A DNA stretch of 64,000 bases, from positions 367,513-431,512 of the forward strand of contig NZ_LPNO01000002.1 in assembly GCF_001952855.1 (NCBI RefSeq), read 5' to 3'. Source of the stretch: Pseudomonas sp. ATCC PTA-122608 (GTDB lineage Bacteria; Pseudomonadota; Gammaproteobacteria; Pseudomonadales; Pseudomonadaceae). Below the pieces are notes generated by a model. The model was not told where the DNA came from. It worked only from the letters and a program-made list of their open reading frames with translations, and made no database searches. Shown here one piece after another: positions 222 to 9,396 of the stretch. Each line of letters opens with the position of its first letter. Within the stretch, counting starts at the first letter, position 1. The translations under genes were made by a program, and so were the position numbers.

Positions 222-425
222 ATGGGCATCGTCAAGATCACCGACCAATTGCACGAACAACTCCGTCTGGCCAGCGCCACCATGGACCGTTCCATCAACG
301 CCCAGGCCGAGTTCTGGATCAAGATCGGCCTGCTCGCCGAGCTCAATCCGCACCTGGCCTATAACGACCTGATCAACAAACTGTTGCTGGACAAACCCGA
401 CCTGATCCGGGGGCGCGCGCAATGA
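222..425 (+). CDS. ParD-like ribbon-helix-helix antitoxin
   Basis: A 67-residue protein beginning MGIVKITDQLHEQLRLAS. This resembles the ParD-like family of type II antitoxins: a short beta strand followed by helices, as in an RHH DNA-binding fold. A GTG nine bases upstream (213) is possible, but the ATG gives the family's usual N-terminus. The stop codon overlaps the start of the methionine aminopeptidase gene (ATGA at 422-425), so the two are translationally coupled. No ParE-type toxin is visible on either side. The likely role is a DNA-binding autoregulator of the map-like gene rather than half of a classical toxin-antitoxin pair; that role is inference. Confidence 0.75.
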   Translation: MGIVKITDQLHEQLRLASATMDRSINAQAEFWIKIGLLAELNPHLAYNDLINKLLLDKPDLIRGRAQ

Positions 426-1177
426 TCAAGACTGCGGAACAACTCGCCGTGATGCGCGAAGCCGGCCGCCTGTTGGCCCAGGTGTTTACCATGCTCGACG
501 GCTTTGTCGCCGCCGGCCAGTCAACCCTGGAGATCGACAGCGCCGTAGAAGCCTACATCCGCAGCGACCTGCAATCACGGCCTGCGAGCCTGGGCCAATA
601 CGACTACCCCTTCTGCATCAACACCTCGATCAACGAGGTGGTGTGCCATGGCATGCCGAGCGCCAAGGCGGTGCTCAAGGACGGCGACATCGTCAATATC
701 GACATCACCCTGGAAAAAGGCGGTTTCATTGCCGACTCCAGCAAGATGTACATGATCGGCAACGTCGCCCCCAAGGCCCGGCGCCTGGTGGAAATGACCT
801 TTGAAGCGATGTGGGCCGGAATTCGCCAGGTCAAGCCCGGCGCACGCCTGGGGGATATCGGCTACGCCATCCAGAGCCATGCCCAGAGCAACGGCTACAG
901 CGTGGTGCGTGAATATTGCGGGCACGGCATCGGCCGCGAGATGCACGAAGAGCCGCAGATCCTGCACTTTGGCCGTCCCGGCACCGGGCTGGAACTGCGT
1001 GAAGGCATGGTGTTTACCATTGAACCGATGCTCAACCAGGGCAGCGCCAAGGTGCGCAGCTTGAAAGACGGCTGGACGGTGGTGACGCGGGATAACAGCC
1101 TGTCGGCACAGTGGGAACATACCGTGGCGGTGACGCGGGATGGGTTTGAGGTGTTGACGTTGCAGCCGGACGTCTGA
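422..1177 (+). CDS. map: Type I methionine aminopeptidase (second copy type)
   Basis: 251 residues, the normal length for bacterial MetAP type I. It removes the initiator methionine from nascent cytosolic proteins. All five metal ligands are visible: D94 (NIDIT), D105 (IADSSKM), H168 (CGHGIGRE), E201 (FTIEP) and E232 (QWEHT); the substrate-binding H76 (VVCHGMP) is also present. Pseudomonads carry the essential map next to rpsB, so this copy, coupled to a ParD-like gene and not to rpsB, is probably an accessory paralogue. Its expression should depend on the operator upstream of the ParD-like gene. What condition calls for it cannot be read from sequence. Confidence 0.9.
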   Translation: MIKTAEQLAVMREAGRLLAQVFTMLDGFVAAGQSTLEIDSAVEAYIRSDLQSRPASLGQYDYPFCINTSINEVVCHGMPSAKAVLKDGDIVNIDITLEKGGFIADSSKMYMIGNVAPKARRLVEMTFEAMWAGIRQVKPGARLGDIGYAIQSHAQSNGYSVVREYCGHGIGREMHEEPQILHFGRPGTGLELREGMVFTIEPMLNQGSAKVRSLKDGWTVVTRDNSLSAQWEHTVAVTRDGFEVLTLQPDV

Positions 1178-1192
1178 ATGGCGCAAATCCCC

Positions 1193-1282
1193 TGTGGGAG
1201 CGGGCTTGCTCGCGAAAGCGGTGGATCAGTCGCTGTAGATGGCGACTGTCACACCGCTTTCGCGAGCAAGCCCGCTCCCACA
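1193..1282. repeat. REPIN (GTGGGAGCGGGCTTGCTCGCG type)
   Basis: Two inverted 30-base arms (1194-1223 and 1252-1281), each itself palindromic around GCTTGC/GCAAGC, separated by about 28 bases. This is the paired-REP (REPIN) layout typical of fluorescent pseudomonads. It sits between the convergent map-like and corA-like genes. Confidence 0.9.
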
Positions 1283-1312
1283 TTTAGAACTGAGTGATAC
1301 TCAGGATTTTAG

Positions 1313-2254
1313 TCAAACCGCTTTATCACCGCTCCCCGCAATCCGCTTCAACCCCAACACCATCAACCCCGCCCCCAGCCCCATCGCTGCCAAAAACAAC
1401 GGATACGAAATCCACCACGGCGTCCCCGCCGTCATCATGCTGAATTCCGACATCCCGCCCACACTCGCAATCAGGTTCAGCGGCAGGAACACCACGTTGA
1501 TCAACGTCAGCTTGCGCAGCAGGTTGTTCATGCTGTTGTTCATCAGGTTGCCCCGGGCATCGATCAGCCCGGAGAACACGTTGGAGTAAATCTCTGCCTG
1601 CTTGTAGCACTGGTTGTTCTCGATGATCAGGTCATCGATCAGGCCCAGGGTCTCAGCGCTGAAATGCTCCTTTTCCCCATGGTTACGCAGGCGCGTCAGC
1701 ACCGCGCCGTTGCTGTGCAAGGCGTTGATGTAATAGATCAGGCTTTCGCTGAGGTTGAACATCTGCATCAGGTGGCGGTTGCTCATCGATGCGTTGAACT
1801 GCTGCTGCAACTCCCGGGCGACCATCTTGATCACCTTGAGGTGGCCCAGGTAGTGGTGGATGTTGTTGAGCAGCAGGTCCAGCAACACATCCAGTGGCGT
1901 GCGTAACGGCCGGCGTGAGCCCAGCCCGGAGAGTTGGCTGTCGTCGGTGGCGATCACCAAGAGTTGGTCCCCGGAAAACAGCAGGCCGCAGGACGACACT
2001 TCAAACACCAGGTTGCCGCCGCCGGAATAGTTTTCCGGGCGCTTCCAGATCAGGAACAGGTTATCGGGGTGGAACTCGATGCGGGACACTTCGTCCGGGT
2101 CGAGCGCCGAGGCCAGGGCGTGCTCATCAAGCTTGTAGCAGTCGCGCAGGTACTTGCGCTCGTGGGGGTCCGGATTGCTGAACAGCAAGACATCCCCGCC
2201 GTCCCCCAGGCTGTTGTACAACTTGCCATCGGTTAATTCAAAGCGCTGGATCAT
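1313..2254 (-). CDS. CorA-like divalent cation transporter homologue with GMS motif
   Basis: 313 residues with CorA/ZntB topology: a large cytoplasmic N-terminal domain, a long helical stalk (about 120-240) and two C-terminal membrane helices (about 247-266 and 281-303). The family signature GMN just after the first helix is here G267-M268-S269 (SVGGMSEF). GMN is the selectivity filter of CorA channels and is nearly invariant, so substrate or transport ability is doubtful. The gene starts six bases after the stop of the RimK-like gene and is almost certainly cotranscribed with it. It may be a channel of altered specificity or a membrane partner of the ligase. Confidence 0.85.
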   Translation of the reverse strand: MIQRFELTDGKLYNSLGDGGDVLLFSNPDPHERKYLRDCYKLDEHALASALDPDEVSRIEFHPDNLFLIWKRPENYSGGGNLVFEVSSCGLLFSGDQLLVIATDDSQLSGLGSRRPLRTPLDVLLDLLLNNIHHYLGHLKVIKMVARELQQQFNASMSNRHLMQMFNLSESLIYYINALHSNGAVLTRLRNHGEKEHFSAETLGLIDDLIIENNQCYKQAEIYSNVFSGLIDARGNLMNNSMNNLLRKLTLINVVFLPLNLIASVGGMSEFSMMTAGTPWWISYPLFLAAMGLGAGLMVLGLKRIAGSGDKAV

Positions 2255-2260
2255 CGCACG

Positions 2261-3847
2261 TCACCACACCTGGCCTTGACGCTTCAACTCCAGGCGTCGT
2301 ACGAACTCTTCCAGTACCAGGGAATACAAGTCGTCTTGCAGGTAGGCATCTTCGATACCGGCGTCCATGTTGGGGTTGTCGTTGACCTCGATCACCACCA
2401 CCTTGTCGCCGGATTGCTTGAGGTCGACGCCGTACAGGCCATCGCCGATCAGGTTGGCGGTTTTTACCGCCAGTTCCACCACGGCCTTGGGTGCTTCGTG
2501 AACCGCCAGGGTGCGGCACTCGCCATTGATGTCCTGGCCGATGGCCTTGTGGTTGTAGATCTGCCAATGGCCCTTGGACATGAAGTACTGGCAGGCAAAG
2601 ATCGGTTTGCGGTTGAGGACGCCGATGCGCCAGTCGTACTCGGTGTAGAAAAATTCCTGGGCCAGCAGCAACACTGAATGCTCGAACAGTTCGGCGGTGG
2701 CGGTCAGCAGCGCTTGCTGGCTTTCGACCTTGATCACGCCACGGGAGAAACACCCGTCGGGGATCTTCAGCACCAGCGGGAAGCCAAGGCGCTCGCCCAC
2801 CCGTTCAAAGTCTTCGGGTCGTTCCTTGTAGAGAATTTCGGTGGCGGGCATGCCCAACTGGTGGCTTTTCAGCAGGTCGGTGAGGTAGACCTTGTTGGTG
2901 CAGCGCAGGATCGACGCAGGGTCGTCCATCACCACCAGCCCTTCGCTCTCGGCCTTTTTGGCGAAGCGGTAGGTGTGGTTGTCGACGCTGGTGGTCTCGC
3001 GGATCAGCAAGGCGTCGTATTCGGCCAGGCGGGCGTAGTCCTTGCGTTCGATCAGTTCCACATCGATGCCCAGGCCCTTGCCGACGCGTACAAAGTTCTC
3101 GAGAGCGCGGGCGTTGGATGGCGGCAATTGTTCCTGCGGGTCATGCAGGATCGCCAGGTCGTAGCGGGCCAAACGTCGGGAGCGCGGTTGGCGCCAAATC
3201 TTGCGGCTGAAGTTGTCCAGCGCGTTGGCAAACTGATCTTCCTGGTCATCGCGCAACTTGTGCAATACGCCAGACTTGATGCCTTCGATGTGCCAGCCGT
3301 TATTCTTGCGAAACTCAACTAACAGGATTGGACAAGGGAACGCTTCAAACAACTGACGGGCCAAATCCTGCAAGGGTTCAATATTGGTTCGGCCAAAGTA
3401 AAGTGTCAGGGTGAAGCCTTCGGTGTTGCTGTAGAGATGGTGACTCAAGGCTTTGTCGAGGGTTTTATCCAGGTCATCCAGGGCCAGGCCATACAGTGAT
3501 TTTTTGGTCAACTCGCTGATGGTGCGCACCGACGGAATCACCTTGTGGCCCCGCGCCTCGGCCAGCAGCGAGCAATAGTAACCGTGCCCCAGGTACTTGT
3601 AGCTGCGGCACAGGTTGATCACCTGGACCCGCTTGCCCGTCTCGCTTTCCCGGGTTTGCTCAAGGTATTCCTGGGCGGTGACGATGTCTTCGCTGGGAAA
3701 GTACGACGCCCAGTCTTCCTTGCGCTCGACAATGATCACGACTTGACTTGCACTCTTGGGAGGGCTGGAAAAATAACCGTTGGAAGTTATTGTCGCCGCC
3801 ACTGTTTGCTCGGATACTTCACGCCAATGACCTTGTACCGCTGACAT
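2261..3847 (-). CDS. RimK-like ATP-grasp ligase with N-terminal RimK-associated domain
   Basis: 528 residues. Roughly the first 200 form the extra N-terminal domain found in long RimK relatives; the C-terminal 300 are an ATP-grasp fold. Visible features are the nucleotide-binding stretch with KIPDGCFSRG and the metal-binding end VDLK...VIEVNDNPN. ATP-grasp enzymes of this type join a carboxylate to an amine through an acyl-phosphate; RimK itself adds glutamates to ribosomal protein S6. The extra domain and the divergent C39-peptidase/GNAT gene argue for a different target, such as a peptide or small amidated metabolite. It is first in an operon with the CorA-like gene. Substrate unknown. Confidence 0.88.
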   Translation of the reverse strand: MSAVQGHWREVSEQTVAATITSNGYFSSPPKSASQVVIIVERKEDWASYFPSEDIVTAQEYLEQTRESETGKRVQVINLCRSYKYLGHGYYCSLLAEARGHKVIPSVRTISELTKKSLYGLALDDLDKTLDKALSHHLYSNTEGFTLTLYFGRTNIEPLQDLARQLFEAFPCPILLVEFRKNNGWHIEGIKSGVLHKLRDDQEDQFANALDNFSRKIWRQPRSRRLARYDLAILHDPQEQLPPSNARALENFVRVGKGLGIDVELIERKDYARLAEYDALLIRETTSVDNHTYRFAKKAESEGLVVMDDPASILRCTNKVYLTDLLKSHQLGMPATEILYKERPEDFERVGERLGFPLVLKIPDGCFSRGVIKVESQQALLTATAELFEHSVLLLAQEFFYTEYDWRIGVLNRKPIFACQYFMSKGHWQIYNHKAIGQDINGECRTLAVHEAPKAVVELAVKTANLIGDGLYGVDLKQSGDKVVVIEVNDNPNMDAGIEDAYLQDDLYSLVLEEFVRRLELKRQGQVW

Positions 3848-3941
3848 ATTGATTGATCCGCTTTAGAGAACTAGACCTTTTCTATTAAGCACGATCTTTT
3901 AGAGAAGTCCCGTTTCGTTACGCAACTTTTACGGCGGTCAC

Positions 3942-5042
3942 ATGGCTCTTTCCTTTCGCGTTGCAACACCCGATGACGTGCCTGCATTGGTGGCATTGGA
4001 ACAGCACTGTTTCACCACGGACCGGCTCTCCACCCGCAGCTTCCAGTGGATGGTCAGCCGCGCCCACGGGCAACTGCTGGTGGCAGAAAAAGATGACGAT
4101 TTGCTGGGCTACGCCCTGGTGCTGTTCCACCGGGGCACCTCCTTGGCGCGCCTGTATTCCATCGCCATCGCCGAGTCCTCCCGGGGCCTGGGACTGGGCA
4201 AGCAACTGCTGACGCGCATCGAAGCCTGCGCCGTAGAACATGACTGCGCCTACCTGCGCCTGGAAGTGCGCACCGACAACCCCAGCGCCATCGCCCTGTA
4301 CGAGCGCAACGGCTACCGGCGCTTTGCCCTGATCAACGACTACTACGAAGACCACGCCCCGGCACTGCGCCTGGAGAAACGCATCCTCCAGCACCAGGAT
4401 GCGCGAGCCTTGAGCGTGCCCTATTACCAACAGACCACCGACTTCACCTGTGGCGCCGCCAGCCTGCTGATGGCCATGGGTGCCCTGGAACCTGCGCGTG
4501 TGGCCCAGCGCCGGGAAGAACTGCAAATCTGGCGCGAAGCAACCACCGTGTTCATGACCGCCGGCCATGGCGGTTGCAGCCCCCAAGGCCTGGCACTTGC
4601 CGCCTGGCGCCGGGGCTTTCGGGTACGCATGCAGGTCAACGTCAGCGGGCCGTTGTTTCTCGACGGAGTGCGTGATGCGCATAAAAAAGACGTCATGCGC
4701 TTGGTGCATGACGCCTTCGAGGAAGAGTTGGCCTTGAGTGACGTTGAGCGAGTACTCGGCGGCCCGCTGGATCTACCCCAGGTACTGCGCGACGGTGGAC
4801 AGCCGCTGGTGTTGATCAGCAGCTACCGGCTGACCCGCTCCAAGTCGCCCCATTGGGTGATCGTCACCGACTGCGACGAAGACTTCGTCTACCTGCATGA
4901 CCCGGACGTCGACCACAGCCAGCACCGCCAACCCATGGACTGTCAGCACTTGCCGGTCAGCCACGGGGAGTTCGAGCGAATGTGCCGGTTCGGCAACAAC
5001 AAGTTGCGTGCGGCGGTGGTGGTGTTCAGGCGACTTGCTTGA
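3942..5042 (+). CDS. GNAT acetyltransferase fused to C39-like peptidase
   Basis: 366 residues with two domains. Residues about 1-150 are a GNAT fold with the acetyl-CoA loop SSRGLGLGKQLL (79-90). Residues about 157-366 are a C39-family papain-like domain with Cys170 (DFTCGAAS), His304 (SPHWVIV) and Asp320 (LHDP), a complete triad. C39 peptidases usually cut after Gly-Gly leaders on ABC exporters; here there is no transporter and no membrane segment, so the enzyme should be cytosolic. It is divergent from the RimK-like gene across 94 bases. An acetylate-and-cleave partner to an amide ligase is the natural reading, but no substrate is evident. Its stop overlaps the sfnG stop by 17 bases on the other strand. 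Confidence 0.88.
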   Translation: MALSFRVATPDDVPALVALEQHCFTTDRLSTRSFQWMVSRAHGQLLVAEKDDDLLGYALVLFHRGTSLARLYSIAIAESSRGLGLGKQLLTRIEACAVEHDCAYLRLEVRTDNPSAIALYERNGYRRFALINDYYEDHAPALRLEKRILQHQDARALSVPYYQQTTDFTCGAASLLMAMGALEPARVAQRREELQIWREATTVFMTAGHGGCSPQGLALAAWRRGFRVRMQVNVSGPLFLDGVRDAHKKDVMRLVHDAFEEELALSDVERVLGGPLDLPQVLRDGGQPLVLISSYRLTRSKSPHWVIVTDCDEDFVYLHDPDVDHSQHRQPMDCQHLPVSHGEFERMCRFGNNKLRAAVVVFRRLA

Positions 5043-6117
5043 TCCCGGCCTTGGCTTCCAGCTCGCGCACCAGCGGCAACACGCGCTGGCCGAAGTACTC
5101 GACTTCTTCCTGGAAATGCAGGAAACCCGCCAGCACCAGGTCCACGCCGACCGCTTTCAAGGCGACGATGCGCTCGGCGATCTGTTGCGGGGTGCCGATC
5201 AGGTTGGTCTTGAAGCCGTCGTTGTATTGCACCAGATCTTCAAAGGTCGACTTGGCCCAGTTGCCCTCGCCTTCCGGCGATGCCTTGCCCGCCTGCTTCG
5301 CCGCATCGCCGAACGCATTGACGGCTTCCGGGTCGGCCTGCTCGATGATTTGCGCGAGCACGGCGCGGGCCTCTTCCTCGGTGTCGCGGGCGATCACAAA
5401 GGCGTTGACCCCGACTTTCACCGAATGGTGGTTGGCAGCGGCCTTGGCGCGAATGTCGTCCACCTGGGCCTTGATGCCTTCCGGGGTATTGCCGTTGGTG
5501 AAGTACCAGTCCGATACCCGAGCGGCCATGTCACGCGCGGCCCGTGAACTGCCGCCCTGGAAGATTTCCGGGTGCGGTTCGCCCAGTGGCTTGGGCTTGA
5601 GGCTGTAGTTGTCGAAGCGGTAGAAATCACCGCGGAAGGTGAAGTTGTCCTGGGTCCAGATGCCTTTCAGGGCGCGAATGAATTCCTCGGAGCGGCGATA
5701 ACGCTCGTCGTGCTCCAGCCAGTGTTCGCCGATGGCCTGGAACTCACCCTTGAACCAGCCGCTGACGATATTCACGGCGACGCGGCCGTTGGTGAGTTGG
5801 TCGATGGTTGCCAGTTGCTTGGCCGCCAGCGCCGGTTGCCAAGGGCCGGGCAGGATTGCCGCGATTACCTTGAGCTTGGTGGTGGCCGCCAGCAACGCGT
5901 GGCTGAACGCGACGGACTCATGCTGGTATTCAGCGCCATAGCCGGCGGTGAAGCGAATCTGCGTCAGGGCGTATTCGAAGCCGGCTTCTTCGGCCAATTG
6001 CGCCAGCTTGCGGTTGTAGTCGATGCCCCAGTGGGTGCGCTGTTCGATCTTGCTGACCACCAGCCCCCCACTGACGTTGGGCACCCAGTAGGCAAATTTA
6101 ACGGCTTGCTGACTCAT
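5026..6117 (-). CDS. sfnG: FMNH2-dependent dimethylsulfone monooxygenase
   Basis: 363 residues from the ATG at 6117 (MSQQAVKFAYWVPNVSGG). It belongs to the bacterial luciferase-like flavin monooxygenases; AVNIVSGWFKGEF and the GGSS-containing stretch are typical of the SfnG/SsuD group, and overall resemblance to SfnG is strong. SfnG oxidises dimethylsulfone to methanesulfinate with reduced FMN, letting the cell use it as a sulfur source. A longer reading frame extends upstream to 6285, but the ATG at 6117 matches the family N-terminus and sits properly behind the sigma54-type promoter at 6156-6171. Confidence 0.9.
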   Translation of the reverse strand: MSQQAVKFAYWVPNVSGGLVVSKIEQRTHWGIDYNRKLAQLAEEAGFEYALTQIRFTAGYGAEYQHESVAFSHALLAATTKLKVIAAILPGPWQPALAAKQLATIDQLTNGRVAVNIVSGWFKGEFQAIGEHWLEHDERYRRSEEFIRALKGIWTQDNFTFRGDFYRFDNYSLKPKPLGEPHPEIFQGGSSRAARDMAARVSDWYFTNGNTPEGIKAQVDDIRAKAAANHHSVKVGVNAFVIARDTEEEARAVLAQIIEQADPEAVNAFGDAAKQAGKASPEGEGNWAKSTFEDLVQYNDGFKTNLIGTPQQIAERIVALKAVGVDLVLAGFLHFQEEVEYFGQRVLPLVRELEAKAGIKQVA

Positions 6118-6155
6118 CGGACTGTACCTCGCGGATTGGCATGTACAGCGTAGGG

Positions 6156-6171
6156 AGCAGCAACTGTGCCA
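6156..6171 (-). promoter_or_regulatory. Candidate sigma54 promoter of sfnG
   Basis: On the minus strand the sequence reads TGGCACAGTTGCTGCT. It has GG and GC separated by ten bases and matches TGGCAC-N5-TTGCT except for one base in the -12 box. The -12 GC lies about 40 bases before the sfnG ATG. In P. putida sfnG is controlled by the sigma54-dependent activator SfnR, which fits. Confidence 0.7.
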
Positions 6172-6270
6172 GTGACCGTGAGAAGCCCGGCCCAAGTGGC
6201 CTGGCGCGCGGAAATGGGCGAAAAGCAACCTGCGGGAAGGTGTCATGGATTGCAGTGGTTTGTCGTTTTG

Positions 6271-6288
6271 CTGTTGCCGCAGCAACAG
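6271..6288. promoter_or_regulatory. Enhancer-like palindrome between two sigma54-type promoters
   Basis: CTGTTGC-CGCA-GCAACAG, a perfect 7-bp inverted repeat with a four-base spacer. It sits about 100 bases upstream of the sfnG -24/-12 element and about 40 upstream of the plus-strand one. That is where an SfnR-type activator would bind; the assignment is inferred from position and symmetry only. Confidence 0.5.
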
Positions 6289-6328
6289 TTAAATCCGCCC
6301 CGCGCCCGCAAACACGGTCGTTGGCACC

Positions 6329-6344
6329 CGGCATGGACCGTGCA
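6329..6344 (+). promoter_or_regulatory. Candidate sigma54 promoter of the SfnB-like gene
   Basis: CGGCATGGACCGTGCA has the GG-N10-GC spacing and agrees with TGGCAC-N5-TTGCA at GGCA and TGCA. The -12 GC lies 38 bases before the ATG at 6381, almost the same distance as on the sfnG side. Weaker than the sfnG element. Confidence 0.5.
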
Positions 6345-6380
6345 ATAGCTCCATTGTCCAACTGCCCAGGAACCGTCCCC

Positions 6381-7616
6381 ATGACCGAACACCACGTGAT
6401 CAATCCACTGTCCACCGGCGTCGATTATCACGCCCTGGCCGAACGCTTCCGCCCGATTTTCCAGCGCATCGCCGAGGGTGCCGTAGAACGCGAACACACC
6501 CGCGCCCTGCCCTACGAGCCGATCCAATGGCTCAAGCAAGCCGGCTTTGGCGCCGTGCGCGTTCCGGTGGAATACGGCGGTGGCGGCGCTTCCCTGCCCC
6601 AGCTGTTTGAACTGCTGATCGAGCTCGCCGAAGCCGACTCCAACGTGCCCCAGGCCCTGCGTGGGCATTTCGCGTTTGCCGAAGACCGCCTGAACACCGC
6701 ACCTGGCGCAGCGCGGGACATCTGGTTCAAACGCTTTGTCGACGGCGACATCGTCGGCTGCGCCTGGACCGAAATCGGCAGCGTGGCCATCGGCGATGTC
6801 GTCACTCAAGTCAGCCCCGACGGCGATAAATGGAAACTCAACGGTGAGAAGTTCTACAGCACCGGCAGCCTGTTTTCCGACTGGATCGATGTCTACGCCC
6901 AACGCAGCGACACCGGCGGCGACGTGATTGCCGCCACCCGCACCCGCCAGCCCGGCGTGGTGCAAAGCGATGACTGGGACGGCTTTGGCCAACGCACCAC
7001 CGGCAGCGGTACCTCGCGTTTTACCGATGCGGTGGTGGAGGCAGAAAACGTCATCGACTTTGCTACCCGCTTTAAATACCAGACTGCGTTCTACCAGTTG
7101 GTACTGCTCGCCACCCTGGCCGGTATCGGCCGCGCGGCCCTCAAGGATGTGGCGCATCAGGTGCGCAGCCGCAAGCGGATCTACAGCCACGGCAATGCGG
7201 CCCATGTGAGCCAGGATTCGCAGATACAGCAGGTGGTGGGCGAAGTCGCAGCACTGGTGTATGCCGCCGAAGCCAGCGCGCTGAAGGCCGCGGTTCCGGC
7301 GCAGCGGGCTTATGTGGCGCGGTTTGGTGGGGACGATGCCGTCGAGCGCGAAGCCAACGTGGCGGCCGAGATTGAGTCAGCCACGGCGCAGGTGGTGGTC
7401 TCGGAACTGATCCAGCGCGCCACCACTGAACTGTTCAACGCGCTGGGGGCTTCGGATGTGCGCCAGGGCAAAGCCCTCGATCGGCATTGGCGCAACGCAC
7501 GGACGGTGTCGTCCCACAACCCGGTGATCTACAAGGCGCGGATTGTCGGCGACTGGGTGATCAATGGCACCGAGCCGCCGTTTGTATGGCAGATCGGCAA
7601 TGGGCCAGCGCGTTAA
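6381..7616 (+). CDS. Acyl-CoA dehydrogenase-fold monooxygenase, SfnB/DszC-like
   Basis: 411 residues from ATG 6381 (MTEHHVINPLSTGVDYH). It has the acyl-CoA dehydrogenase three-domain fold with the flavin-contacting WTEIGS and GEKFYSTGS motifs, and lacks the catalytic glutamate context of true fatty acyl-CoA dehydrogenases. This places it with SfnB and DszC-type flavin-dependent sulfur-acquisition oxidoreductases. The position divergent from sfnG, with a matching promoter type, supports a role in releasing sulfur from organosulfur compounds. The reading frame extends upstream to 6141, but that part overlaps the promoter region. The 3' end overlaps the TauE gene by four bases on the opposite strand. 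Confidence 0.82.
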   Translation: MTEHHVINPLSTGVDYHALAERFRPIFQRIAEGAVEREHTRALPYEPIQWLKQAGFGAVRVPVEYGGGGASLPQLFELLIELAEADSNVPQALRGHFAFAEDRLNTAPGAARDIWFKRFVDGDIVGCAWTEIGSVAIGDVVTQVSPDGDKWKLNGEKFYSTGSLFSDWIDVYAQRSDTGGDVIAATRTRQPGVVQSDDWDGFGQRTTGSGTSRFTDAVVEAENVIDFATRFKYQTAFYQLVLLATLAGIGRAALKDVAHQVRSRKRIYSHGNAAHVSQDSQIQQVVGEVAALVYAAEASALKAAVPAQRAYVARFGGDDAVEREANVAAEIESATAQVVVSELIQRATTELFNALGASDVRQGKALDRHWRNARTVSSHNPVIYKARIVGDWVINGTEPPFVWQIGNGPAR

Positions 7617-8398
7617 AGCGCCAGCTTGAAGCCAATCATCACCAGCATGAACGCCAGGCAAGGACGCAATATCCCGTCCGGGACCTTGCCGGCCATGTGG
7701 CTGCCGACATAAATCCCCGGCAGCGAGCCCAGCAACAGGAAGCCCAGCAGGGTCCAGTCCATGTTACCCATGCTCGCGTGGCCGAGGCCTGCGACCAGGG
7801 TCAGCGGCACGGCGTGGGCGATTTCAGTGCCCACCAGGCGCTTAGTAGCCAGGAACGGGTACAGGATAAACAGCGCCACGGTGCCCAGGGCGCCGGCGCC
7901 GATGGAGGTCAGGGCAACCATGGTGCCGAGGATCGCGCCGGTAACGATGGTCAGCGCATTGAGGTTGCGCGGCGCCATCTTGTAGTCGTCGCCGGCATGC
8001 CGCTGGGCGAAGGCCAACAGCTTGTTCTTGAACAGGATCGCCGTGGCCGTCAGCAGCAACACCACGCCCAGGGATTGCTTGATGACCGCGTTCAAGGCCG
8101 CCGGATCAGTGTCCAGGCTCTTGAGGAACCACAAGGTCAGCAATACCGCAGGCACGCTGCCCAGGGTCAACCAGCCGGTGATGGTCCAGTCGATGTTGCG
8201 ATTCTTGCTGTGGACCAGCACACCACCCGACTTGGTGATGGCGGCATACAACAGGTCGGTGCCCACGGCGGTGGCCGGGTTGATGCCGAACCAGAGCAGG
8301 ATCGGCGTCATCAACGAGCCACCGCCGACACCGGTCATACCCACGATAAATCCAACAATCAGGCCAGCAATCGAGAAACCAAAATTACCTACATCCAT
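7613..8398 (-). CDS. TauE/SafE-family sulfite/sulfonate carrier
   Basis: 261 residues of mostly hydrophobic helices (about eight), starting MDVGNFGFSIAGLIVGFIVG. GMTGVGGGSLMTPIL near the N-terminus is the hallmark glycine-rich motif of the TauE/SafE (sulfite exporter) family, repeated in weaker form in the second half (TSIGAGALGTV). These inner-membrane proteins export sulfite or sulfonates or import organosulfur anions. The neighbouring sulfone oxygenases release sulfite, so export of excess sulfite is a sensible role, but the gene is convergent with the SfnB-like gene and not in its operon. Confidence 0.85.
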   Translation of the reverse strand: MDVGNFGFSIAGLIVGFIVGMTGVGGGSLMTPILLWFGINPATAVGTDLLYAAITKSGGVLVHSKNRNIDWTITGWLTLGSVPAVLLTLWFLKSLDTDPAALNAVIKQSLGVVLLLTATAILFKNKLLAFAQRHAGDDYKMAPRNLNALTIVTGAILGTMVALTSIGAGALGTVALFILYPFLATKRLVGTEIAHAVPLTLVAGLGHASMGNMDWTLLGFLLLGSLPGIYVGSHMAGKVPDGILRPCLAFMLVMIGFKLAL

Positions 8399-8480
8399 TA
8401 CAACTACCTGCGGCCTTATAAAATTCTGGCCGCAGCATAGCGATTTTTCTTATAACCACTTATATCAAAACGTTCTGACT

Positions 8481-9260
8481 TTATGCCTTTCTGGCCAGTC
8501 GCTGGCTGCGGTAGGCCTGGGTCTGATACGGGAAGGCGACCGTCTCACGACCGCGCAACGCCGGATGCGTATTGATCAGCGCCTGCAACTGCTCGGTGAC
8601 CCGTGCTTTTTCCGCCGGCGGTAGCGCTGCAATAAAGCTCACGGAGAGGAAGCGATCCATGATCACTTCCTGGGGGCTGCCCACATGGCTGTAGGGGAAG
8701 CAGGTCATTTCGGGGGCGGAGAAATATTCACCGGTGAACGCCTCACGCCATCGCCCGGTGTGAAAACGCGGGGTGTCACCCTCGTAGGGCGTGATGATCT
8801 CGGTGATCGCCGCGACCCAGTCCACCGACTCATCCCGCACATTCCAGATCAACCCAAGGCGGCCGTCCGGCTTGAGCACCCGGTGAATTTCCGCCAGGGC
8901 CGCTTCCGTGGAGAACCAGTGGAATGCCTGGGCGCACACCAGCGCATCGGCGGTGGCCGCTTCAAGGGGAATGGCTTCGGCGGTGCCCGACAGCAGGCGC
9001 ACATCCGGCAGCAGTTTCTTCAACTGCGCGCCCATCGCCTCCACCGGCTCGACCGCGATCAACGTCGGGGCCACGGTATTGAGCAAGCGGGTGAACTTGC
9101 CAGTGCCGGCCCCCAGGTCGATGACTGTGGAATGGGGATTGATCTGCAGGGCCTCCGTCAGCCAGCCCGTGAGTTGCCGTGGATAGTCCGGTCGGCCTTG
9201 GGCGTAGGTGACGGCTTGAGTAGAGAAACCCTGTTGAGCAGACGTGTGAACACCGGTCAT
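8481..9260 (-). CDS. Class I SAM-dependent methyltransferase
   Basis: 259 residues from ATG 9260, which follows AGAGGAG at proper spacing; the frame runs further upstream without a ribosome site. VIDLGAGTGKFT (motif I), VEPVEAMGAQL and LVCAQAFHWF are typical of the UbiE/Methyltransf_11 group. Cytosolic. The substrate cannot be deduced. It is a single-gene unit between the TauE carrier and the divergent DUF3455 gene. Confidence 0.85.
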   Translation of the reverse strand: MTGVHTSAQQGFSTQAVTYAQGRPDYPRQLTGWLTEALQINPHSTVIDLGAGTGKFTRLLNTVAPTLIAVEPVEAMGAQLKKLLPDVRLLSGTAEAIPLEAATADALVCAQAFHWFSTEAALAEIHRVLKPDGRLGLIWNVRDESVDWVAAITEIITPYEGDTPRFHTGRWREAFTGEYFSAPEMTCFPYSHVGSPQEVIMDRFLSVSFIAALPPAEKARVTEQLQALINTHPALRGRETVAFPYQTQAYRSQRLARKA

Positions 9261-9396
9261 TGCCAATCGCTCCTCTGGTAGTGCGGGGGCCACAGTGTGC
9301 GCCCTTGCTGATTTATTTTCTAATCGCTGCATCCGTTTTTGCGTGTCGTGGGTAGTACAGGTAGCAGCGCCTTGCTGCCCCTACGGAGAGACACTG

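Follow-up and report, generated by a model that had tools for sequence, protein, structure and literature searches.

In the vertebrate NAA/NAAG cycle, a GNAT enzyme forms an N-acetyl amino acid, a RimK-like ATP-grasp enzyme adds a residue, and a peptidase and an acylase carry out degradation. Gene neighbourhoods that combine RLAN/ATP-grasp proteins with GNAT and papain-like domains were reportedly predicted by Iyer et al. 2009, a work cited in a 2023 paper that, in the excerpt consulted, mentions a DUF3335-GNAT fusion (PMC10318531). The NAGGN synthetase Ngg (TIGR03103; P. aeruginosa PA3459-PA3461) acetylates glutamine and also forms the peptide bond, according to part of the source (PMC8070244). 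The consulted part of another report describes RloABC of P. aeruginosa, in which mutating the ATP-grasp protein rescues the loss of proteases (PMC12239564). GNAT capping has been proposed for R2K, ATP-grasp families other than the RLAN type (PMC4431377, in extract). Fosmids from Pseudomonas sp. ANT_H4 carry a RimK family protein together with a GNAT next to a dimethyl sulfone monooxygenase, in the gene order found here (PMC9756463, in extract).

The present locus lies in a window of 64,000 nucleotides, the whole stretch of Pseudomonas sp. ATCC PTA-122608 DNA that was analysed. A sequence-only reading had placed three open reading frames between positions 1313 and 5042, and all three are present there. 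On the minus strand, the ligase gene (2261..3847) encodes 528 residues with an RLAN domain (residues 58-209) and a pre-ATP-grasp/RimK-like ATP-grasp region (about residues 229-521), as assigned from Pfam, alignment and a structure model. A 313-residue CorA-superfamily membrane protein, assigned by Pfam, begins 6 bp past it on the same strand (1313..2254). Divergent from these, the plus strand (3942..5042) carries a 366-residue fusion of a GNAT domain (about residues 3-150) with a DUF3335 C39/papain-like domain (residues 159-361), again defined by Pfam, alignment and a structure model. The 94-bp intergenic region (3848..3941) contains a block, CCGTAAAAGTTGCGTAACGAAACGGGACTT in the window's letters, with many invariant columns in an alignment of 17 Pseudomonas-type sequences, window included. 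The 30-base pattern occurs once in the genome with no second copy at up to three mismatches, so that no regulon was found. A sigma-70 promoter scan of positions 1150-5200 returned one site against 0.9 expected and is uninformative.

In its domain families, and reportedly in their association, the locus matches the predicted RLAN/ATP-grasp and GNAT/papain-like neighbourhoods and is a plain member of them, a typical example of a widespread system of uncharacterised function. Calling it undescribed, as the sequence-only reading did, was too strong, since Pfam already lists RLAN and DUF3335, and the 2023 excerpt (PMC10318531) mentions the fusion of DUF3335 with GNAT. That reading had itself allowed for prior comparative-genomic predictions. 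Among the matches listed in the open-licence literature, we found neither an experimental function for the RLAN ligase/DUF3335 system nor a phenotype for the ligase/GNAT system.

Like Ngg, the locus brings together GNAT, ATP-grasp and peptidase domains, and in one fused homologue (L097, below) the GNAT precedes the ATP-grasp as it does in Ngg. However, the window ligase belongs to another ATP-grasp subfamily, with RLAN; no asparagine-synthetase partner is found among the window proteins scanned; and the peptidase-like domain is of the cysteine type, whereas the Ngg system has a glutamyl aminopeptidase. The likeness of the window pair to the vertebrate cycle is by analogy only. RimK/RimB shares with it the ligase fold, the catalytic core and a peptidase that may undo the work of the ligase, but ligase similarity is low, the chain contacts are partly kept and the peptidase class is unrelated. 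RloABC likewise pairs an ATP-grasp protein with proteases, but these are signal-peptide aspartic proteases accompanied by an inactive-transglutaminase membrane protein, and the part of the report consulted mentions neither GNAT nor C39 (PMC12239564).

The ligase has the architecture that defines the RLAN type, an RLAN domain (PF14401, E 1.1e-53, 181.3 bits against a cut-off of 25) followed by a RimK-type ATP-grasp domain (PF08443, E 8.8e-9, 35.7 bits against 21), both above curated thresholds. Residues K319, K361, D405, R407, D475, E487 and N489 are invariant in all 36 aligned sequences, window included, and K319, K361, D475, E487 and N489 are presumably the ATP/Mg ligands by homology to RimK. 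The structure model (pLDDT 82.5) has a RimK/LysX-like fold with RimK as the closest solved structure (Z 27.3); the ATP-grasp part fills the match list, leaving no room there for matches to the RLAN domain. Sequence alignment shows that RimK positions R64, R189, D248, E260 and N262 are retained. Seven RimK residues contact the poly-glutamate chain in the extract consulted (S7, R8, S14, R64, S68, R189 and N262; PMC10092738), and three of these, R64, R189 and N262, are kept in 36/36 ligase sequences. In the same alignment, whose roughly 20% identity leaves positions uncertain, S7 and S14 are replaced, R8 faces a gap, and S68 is Ser in the window ligase, yet in just 11 of the 36 sequences. The genome encodes a canonical RimK at another locus (E 1.4e-69, where the window ligase has 6.1e-9), and the ligase scores below the S6 RimK cut-offs (NF007764, 31.5 against 331 bits; TIGR00768, 78.9 against 143.4 bits). 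Glutamylation of S6, which the sequence-only reading had weighed as the outcome opposed to its proposal, is therefore an unlikely role for the ligase because the genome has a separate RimK. A canonical S6 glutamylase as main role was set aside on this ground, together with the sub-cut-off scores and the partial retention of chain contacts.

In the fusion protein, the GNAT domain (PF00583, E 5.5e-18, residues 27-125 in Pfam) is closest in the model to N-alpha-acetyltransferases (Ard1, Z 23.3; RimI, Z 22.6). It scores 81.1 bits against RimI TIGR01575 (83.8 in the genome search), just short of the cut-off of 86.4, and so a protein N-terminus would be an equally good acceptor; the genome's own RimI lies elsewhere (145.5 bits). 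The second half matches DUF3335, 'Peptidase_C39 like' (PF11814, E 7.7e-86, 287.3 bits against a cut-off of 25, residues 159-361), with no match to Peptidase_C39 PF03412 at E 0.01. Its proposed triad is complete, as Cys170 and His304 are found in 29/29 aligned sequences (window included) and position 320 is Asp in 24 and Glu in five. The structure-match lists are filled by the GNAT half, leaving no room there for matches to the DUF3335 half, and among PDB sequences the latter matches only proteins with a BtrH N-terminal domain (best E 0.28, not significant). The absence of an ABC exporter, also part of the original description, holds for the eight window proteins scanned with Pfam (positions 422-9332). 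Bacteriocin processing was rejected as a role for the C39 domain, which is fused to a GNAT and has no ABC protein among these eight.

The association of RLAN with DUF3335 is far beyond chance. Among 299 sampled genomes of the phylum, RLAN occurs in 56 (about a fifth) and DUF3335 in 47, with 46 in common (Fisher p 4.5e-43, uncorrected for relatedness); of the 59 RLAN copies, 44 have a DUF3335 match no more than 3 kb away. Methanosarcina acetivorans has a DUF3335 match but no RLAN match, and a small number of MAGs that bear the labels of other phyla also have the ligase system. Within the genus, RLAN is present in 107 of 249 sampled genomes (109 copies) and its function is dispensable, since the other 142 are without it. 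Gene neighbourhoods were examined in 40 phylum regions hand-picked for diversity, 20 genus regions hand-picked from the 109 RLAN copies, and 80 named loci, the best 80 among 584 confirmed ones, a set that leans to close relatives.

The conserved unit in these neighbourhoods is the ligase and GNAT pair, not the trio. In 75 of the 80 named loci (best 80 of 584) and in 35 of 36 phylum ligase loci, window included, a GNAT is encoded no more than 5 kb from the ligase; in the single phylum exception the GNAT-C39 gene sits on another contig. Two of the five named loci that lack a GNAT (L208 and L218) end at a contig edge. Tight linkage is not obligatory, since the available ligase flanks of L189, L216 and L221 hold no GNAT and the two genes are apart in genome G193. 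Linked genes may be codirectional, divergent or downstream of one another, and a 659-residue open reading frame (L097:8553-10532) carries GNAT, RLAN and ATP-grasp in one chain, in that order. This linkage and the fusion bear out the suggestion that the bond-making and N-capping activities belong together. The trio as a whole was not conserved: ligase and GNAT stay together, but C39 is found at 41/80 named loci (best 80 of 584) and CorA is missing from 11 of 30 Pseudomonas-type loci.

The C39 domain is thus an optional part of the system. Of the 75 named loci with a GNAT (among the best 80 of 584), 34 are without it, and even among close relatives it is cut off at the domain boundary in five of the 30 Pseudomonas-type loci, with ligase and GNAT retained. 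Its presence and absence require at least nine changes on a ligase tree of 93 rows; this tree omits L192, L208, L217, L218 and L221, near contig ends (although C39 is present in L192 and L217), together with 18 of the 29 loci L146-L174, including the C39-less L150, L151, L153 and L173, so that L211 is the only one of the five C39-less Pseudomonas-type loci in it. Eight of the 80 named loci (best 80 of 584) have a DUF2817 protein no more than 5 kb from the ligase. Thirteen DUF2817 sequences share an invariant HxxE, an NRN and a later His and Glu, which we take to be an M14 signature; a PDB sequence search with one such neighbour protein gave no hit at E values up to 1. The source genome has no DUF2817 match, which shows little, as the control genomes gave none either.

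The membrane protein matches CorA (PF01544, E 4.8e-32) but falls under the cut-off for the CorA Mg/Co transporter (TIGR00383, 65 against 200.75 bits). GMN is the signature motif of CorA Mg/Co transporters, and these proteins bear GMS instead in 38/38 sequences. With the window protein as phmmer query, no homologue was found in the 40 phylum loci (35 with ligase), and the neighbour was encountered in Pseudomonas-type loci only; it is a lineage-specific accessory. An obligate trio including CorA was rejected on these counts (0/40 phylum loci; missing in 11/30 Pseudomonas-type loci). The loci examined show a ligase-GNAT core, with C39 and CorA optional, DUF2817 recurring and fusion possible, which may go beyond the predicted RLAN/GNAT neighbourhoods.

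We propose, with confidence evenly divided between acceptance and doubt, that the GNAT/RLAN-ATP-grasp pair synthesises a dipeptide or other short peptide with an acetylated N-terminus, and that C39 and DUF2817 are hydrolases which a locus may or may not include. The two enzymes would act in the cytoplasm on one substrate. An amino acid or peptide would be acetylated on its alpha-amine by the GNAT half. The ligase, with ATP, would convert a carboxylate to an acyl-phosphate (the simplest order being that this carboxylate belongs to the N-acetyl product) and couple it to another residue through the amine of the latter. C39, or elsewhere the M14-carboxypeptidase-like DUF2817 protein, may then cleave the product for recycling or control of its level. 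In favour of this reading are the linkage of ligase and GNAT, their fusion in L097, the RimK/LysX-like fold with its retained RimK positions, the closeness of the GNAT half to N-alpha-acetyltransferases, the DUF2817 neighbours, the precedent of Ngg and the conserved intergenic block shared by the two genes. It is also favoured by the retention of both genes where C39 is missing, under purifying selection in the pairs examined (dN/dS for the ligase 0.03-0.08, for GNAT 0.09-0.36). Certain observations count against a two-enzyme peptide pathway. Loci L189, L216 and L221, genome G193, the DUF3335 match without RLAN in Methanosarcina acetivorans and the genus genomes that lack RLAN are among them, and so is the weaker constraint on GNAT in pairs with a C39-less copy (0.19-0.36 against 0.09-0.15 otherwise). 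Ligases that act on widely differing substrates also share the ATP-grasp fold. Among the annotated neighbour clusters, no amino-acid supply gene recurred that might point to the substrate.

Alternatively, the ligase could add residues to a protein C-terminus or side chain, the GNAT could acetylate either that protein or the new residues, and C39 could strip the tag, in the way that RimB trims residues attached by RimK. Such protein modification would suit a ligase whose nearest solved fold is RimK itself, a GNAT half resembling protein N-terminal acetyltransferases and slightly under the RimI cut-off, and the opposing roles reported in the consulted text for the RimK/RimB ligase/protease pair (PMC12239564). 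We nevertheless consider it rather unlikely: canonical RimK is separate in the genome, the chain contacts S7, R8, S14 and S68 are not conserved although R64, R189 and N262 are, and the annotated neighbour clusters hold no obvious recurrent target protein. The C39-like domain might also be an acyl- or peptidyl-transferase performing a third building step in place of hydrolysis. BtrH performs an acyltransferase-type building step in butirosin synthesis. The papain-fold BtrH family is ranked among possible transacylases in the extract consulted (PMC2922099), and BtrH-type proteins provide the only, non-significant, PDB matches of the C39 half. The frequent absence of C39 from GNAT-bearing loci and its repeated changes on the ligase tree disfavour an obligatory building step, and we find this role improbable.

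The genes might instead be neighbours by chance or shared regulation, serving unrelated housekeeping acetylation and ligation, as ligases standing away from any GNAT in G193 and in the available flanks of L189, L216 and L221 would allow. Set against this are the ligase in 46 of 47 DUF3335 genomes, the several linked arrangements and the fusion, which make coincidence very hard to credit. Equally far-fetched is a second NAGGN-type osmolyte synthetase duplicating the known pathway. The GNAT and ATP-grasp domain pair and the peptidase are shared with that pathway, and the GNAT half weakly matches TIGR03103 (23.2 bits, cut-off 569), but the true synthetase lies elsewhere in the genome (894.8 bits), the ligase has RLAN and no TIGR03103 match at E 0.01, and none of the eight scanned window proteins is asparagine-synthetase-like. 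The duplicate was rejected on the first two of these grounds.

Returning to the N-acetyl-peptide reading, the ligase family is found in 56/299 phylum and 107/249 genus genomes, yet its product was not found in print in the open-licence literature. With ligase and GNAT identified as the core, and with natural lineages lacking C39 and CorA, a vague prediction can give way to an assay of two enzymes, and it becomes clear which mutants to compare. Tentatively, and with less than even confidence, we suggest that Pseudomonadota, together with a small number of MAGs labelled otherwise, may contain a widespread unseen N-acetyl-peptide metabolite with dedicated breakdown by a cysteine peptidase and a metallo-carboxypeptidase. 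It would be either the bacterial counterpart of the vertebrate NAAG cycle or, after NAGGN, a second solute or signal of that type.

The three open reading frames that the sequence-only reading had described at the locus are present and placed as it had them. On the minus strand, a 528-residue ligase (2261–3847) matches the Pfam RLAN and RimK-like ATP-grasp families (181.3 and 35.7 bits, respectively) and adjoins a 313-residue membrane protein of the CorA superfamily (1313–2254; 111.9 bits). Divergent from the ligase, a 366-residue fusion (3942–5042, plus strand) carries a GNAT domain (65.8 bits) and the C39/papain-like DUF3335 domain (287.3 bits). The intervening 94-bp region (3848–3941) contains a block that is conserved in 17 Pseudomonas-type sequences, occurs once in the genome, and is perhaps a local operator or promoter common to both genes. 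The genome is Pseudomonas-like (6.98 Mb), and the closest named relative of the ligase, in a set that may omit records very close to the window, is from Pseudomonas costantinii (97% identity). At 5026–7616, dimethylsulfone monooxygenase SfnG (626.6 bits, above cut-off) and an adjoining SfnB-like oxidoreductase (269 bits, below the cut-off of 430.9) are ordinary sulfur-scavenging genes.

The conserved core of the locus is the pair of ligase and GNAT. With a profile built from the family itself, GNAT was detected no more than 5 kb from the ligase at 75 of the 80 named loci (best 80 of 584), 41 with C39 and 34 without it. Two of the five GNAT-less loci (L208 and L218) meet a contig end on that side, and three (L189, L216 and L221) gave no GNAT in the available flank, permissive search included. 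Within the phylum set, window included, GNAT lies beside the ligase in 35 of 36 loci; the sole exception, L072, comes from a genome (G193) with a GNAT-C39 gene on a different contig. In genome G247 (locus L097), a single 659-residue reading frame joins GNAT, RLAN and ATP-grasp, with a separate GNAT-C39 gene beside it. Of the trio in the sequence-only reading, ligase and GNAT are the conserved part, and C39 and CorA are optional.

Some gammaproteobacterial ligases (L072, L216 and L221) have no adjoining GNAT; the neighbour at L072 is by Pfam the cytochrome c maturation gene CcmE, and those at L216 and L221 were judged CcmE-like by eye. In a few genus copies (L128, at 6708–8306, L143, L144 and L174) the ligase gene is split or shortened, and L144 has no GNAT-C39 match, suggesting ongoing decay of the module in some strains. 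A Pseudomonas-like locus with a 73% identical ligase is titled Pantoea sp. Cy-639 (L169), a label that may be wrong.

Across 299 phylum genomes, RLAN occurs in 56, DUF3335 in 47 and both in 46 (Fisher p = 4.5e-43, relatedness ignored), ten having RLAN without DUF3335 and one the reverse. A DUF3335 match lies within 3 kb of 44 of the 59 RLAN copies; 26 of these pairs are codirectional with DUF3335 upstream, 14 are divergent as in the window and four are arranged otherwise. RLAN matched none of 14 control genomes, and DUF3335 matched Methanosarcina acetivorans among them. Additional DUF3335 copies away from any ligase occur in two genomes (L103, 4133–5194 and 13189–14397; L104), and the single copy scanned lacks the GNAT part by Pfam.

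C39 presence requires at least nine changes on a 93-row ligase tree, seven forced by well supported branches, against a shuffled mean of 31.3; on this quick tree, read without direction and with several long branches meeting, C39 is clustered yet repeatedly lost or gained. At five of 30 Pseudomonas-type loci (L150, L151, L153, L173 and L211) the GNAT match stops at about residue 141–160, and tblastn found no C39 remnant there. The gene order of the window (SfnB, SfnG, GNAT, ligase, methionine aminopeptidase) is retained at L150, where neither C39 nor CorA is present, most simply through loss. Pairwise Nei-Gojobori dN/dS between the window and L146, L148, L150, L151 and L153 was 0.03–0.08 for the ligase and 0.09–0.36 for GNAT, larger where the pair includes a C39-less copy; the C39 domain gave 0.05–0.06 (three intact copies compared). 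Ligase and GNAT are therefore maintained without C39 and CorA, GNAT being less tightly constrained.

A CorA homologue accompanies the ligase and GNAT-C39 genes at 18 of 20 hand-picked genus loci, occurs at 19 of the 30 named loci of Pseudomonas type (one homologue being partial), and was found at none of 40 phylum loci, 35 of them with a ligase. All 38 sequences carry GMS in place of the CorA signature motif GMN, so magnesium or cobalt transport is not to be assumed; the sequence change hints at altered ion selectivity or a non-transport role. Other partners within 5 kb of the ligase are DUF2817 (8) and DUF155 (2) among the best 80 of 584 loci, and each recurs in five phylum loci by Pfam of representatives. 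In 13 DUF2817 proteins encoded near the ligase or the GNAT-C39 gene, HxxE (75, 78), NRN (126–128), H228 and E296 are invariant, a pattern that we take to be an M14 carboxypeptidase signature.

Residues 229–521 of the predicted ligase model (pLDDT 82.5) match RimK (Z 27.3, rmsd 2.6, 270 aligned, 21% identity) as well as LysX and ArgX, with D-Ala-D-Ala ligases ranking lower. The RimK metal ligands D248 and E260 correspond to D475 and E487 in all 36 sequences. The RimK contact residues R64, R189 and N262 (PMC10092738) correspond to R283, R407 and N489, again in 36 of 36, and the R203 position is Y421 in every one. The predicted model of the GNAT half (pLDDT 88.9) matches Ard1 (Z 23.3) and RimI (Z 22.6), pointing to an alpha-amine as the probable acceptor. 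In structure searches with models of both proteins, ATP-grasp and GNAT matches took up the lists, and neither RLAN nor C39 received a placement.

Both families are already named in Pfam, such systems were reportedly predicted by Iyer et al. in 2009, and no experimental function for the system was found among the matches listed in the open-licence literature. A 2023 paper citing Iyer et al. mentions DUF3335-GNAT fusions (PMC10318531). Thus, the locus belongs to a known, uncharacterised kind. Canonical RimK (E 1.4e-69), NAGGN synthetase (Ngg; 894.8 bits) and RimI (145.5 bits) are encoded elsewhere in the genome, making the locus dispensable for those functions. According to PMC8070244, Ngg acetylates one glutamine and couples it to a second; the ligase and GNAT pair with its optional hydrolase resembles this enzyme. 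We propose that acetylation comes first and that ATP-dependent ligation follows to give a blocked small peptide, for which C39 or DUF2817 would serve as turnover enzymes. The domain anatomy, its conservation and the natural absences are observed here, and the substrates, step order and hydrolysis are inferred. The main rival reading is that the target is a protein rather than a small peptide.
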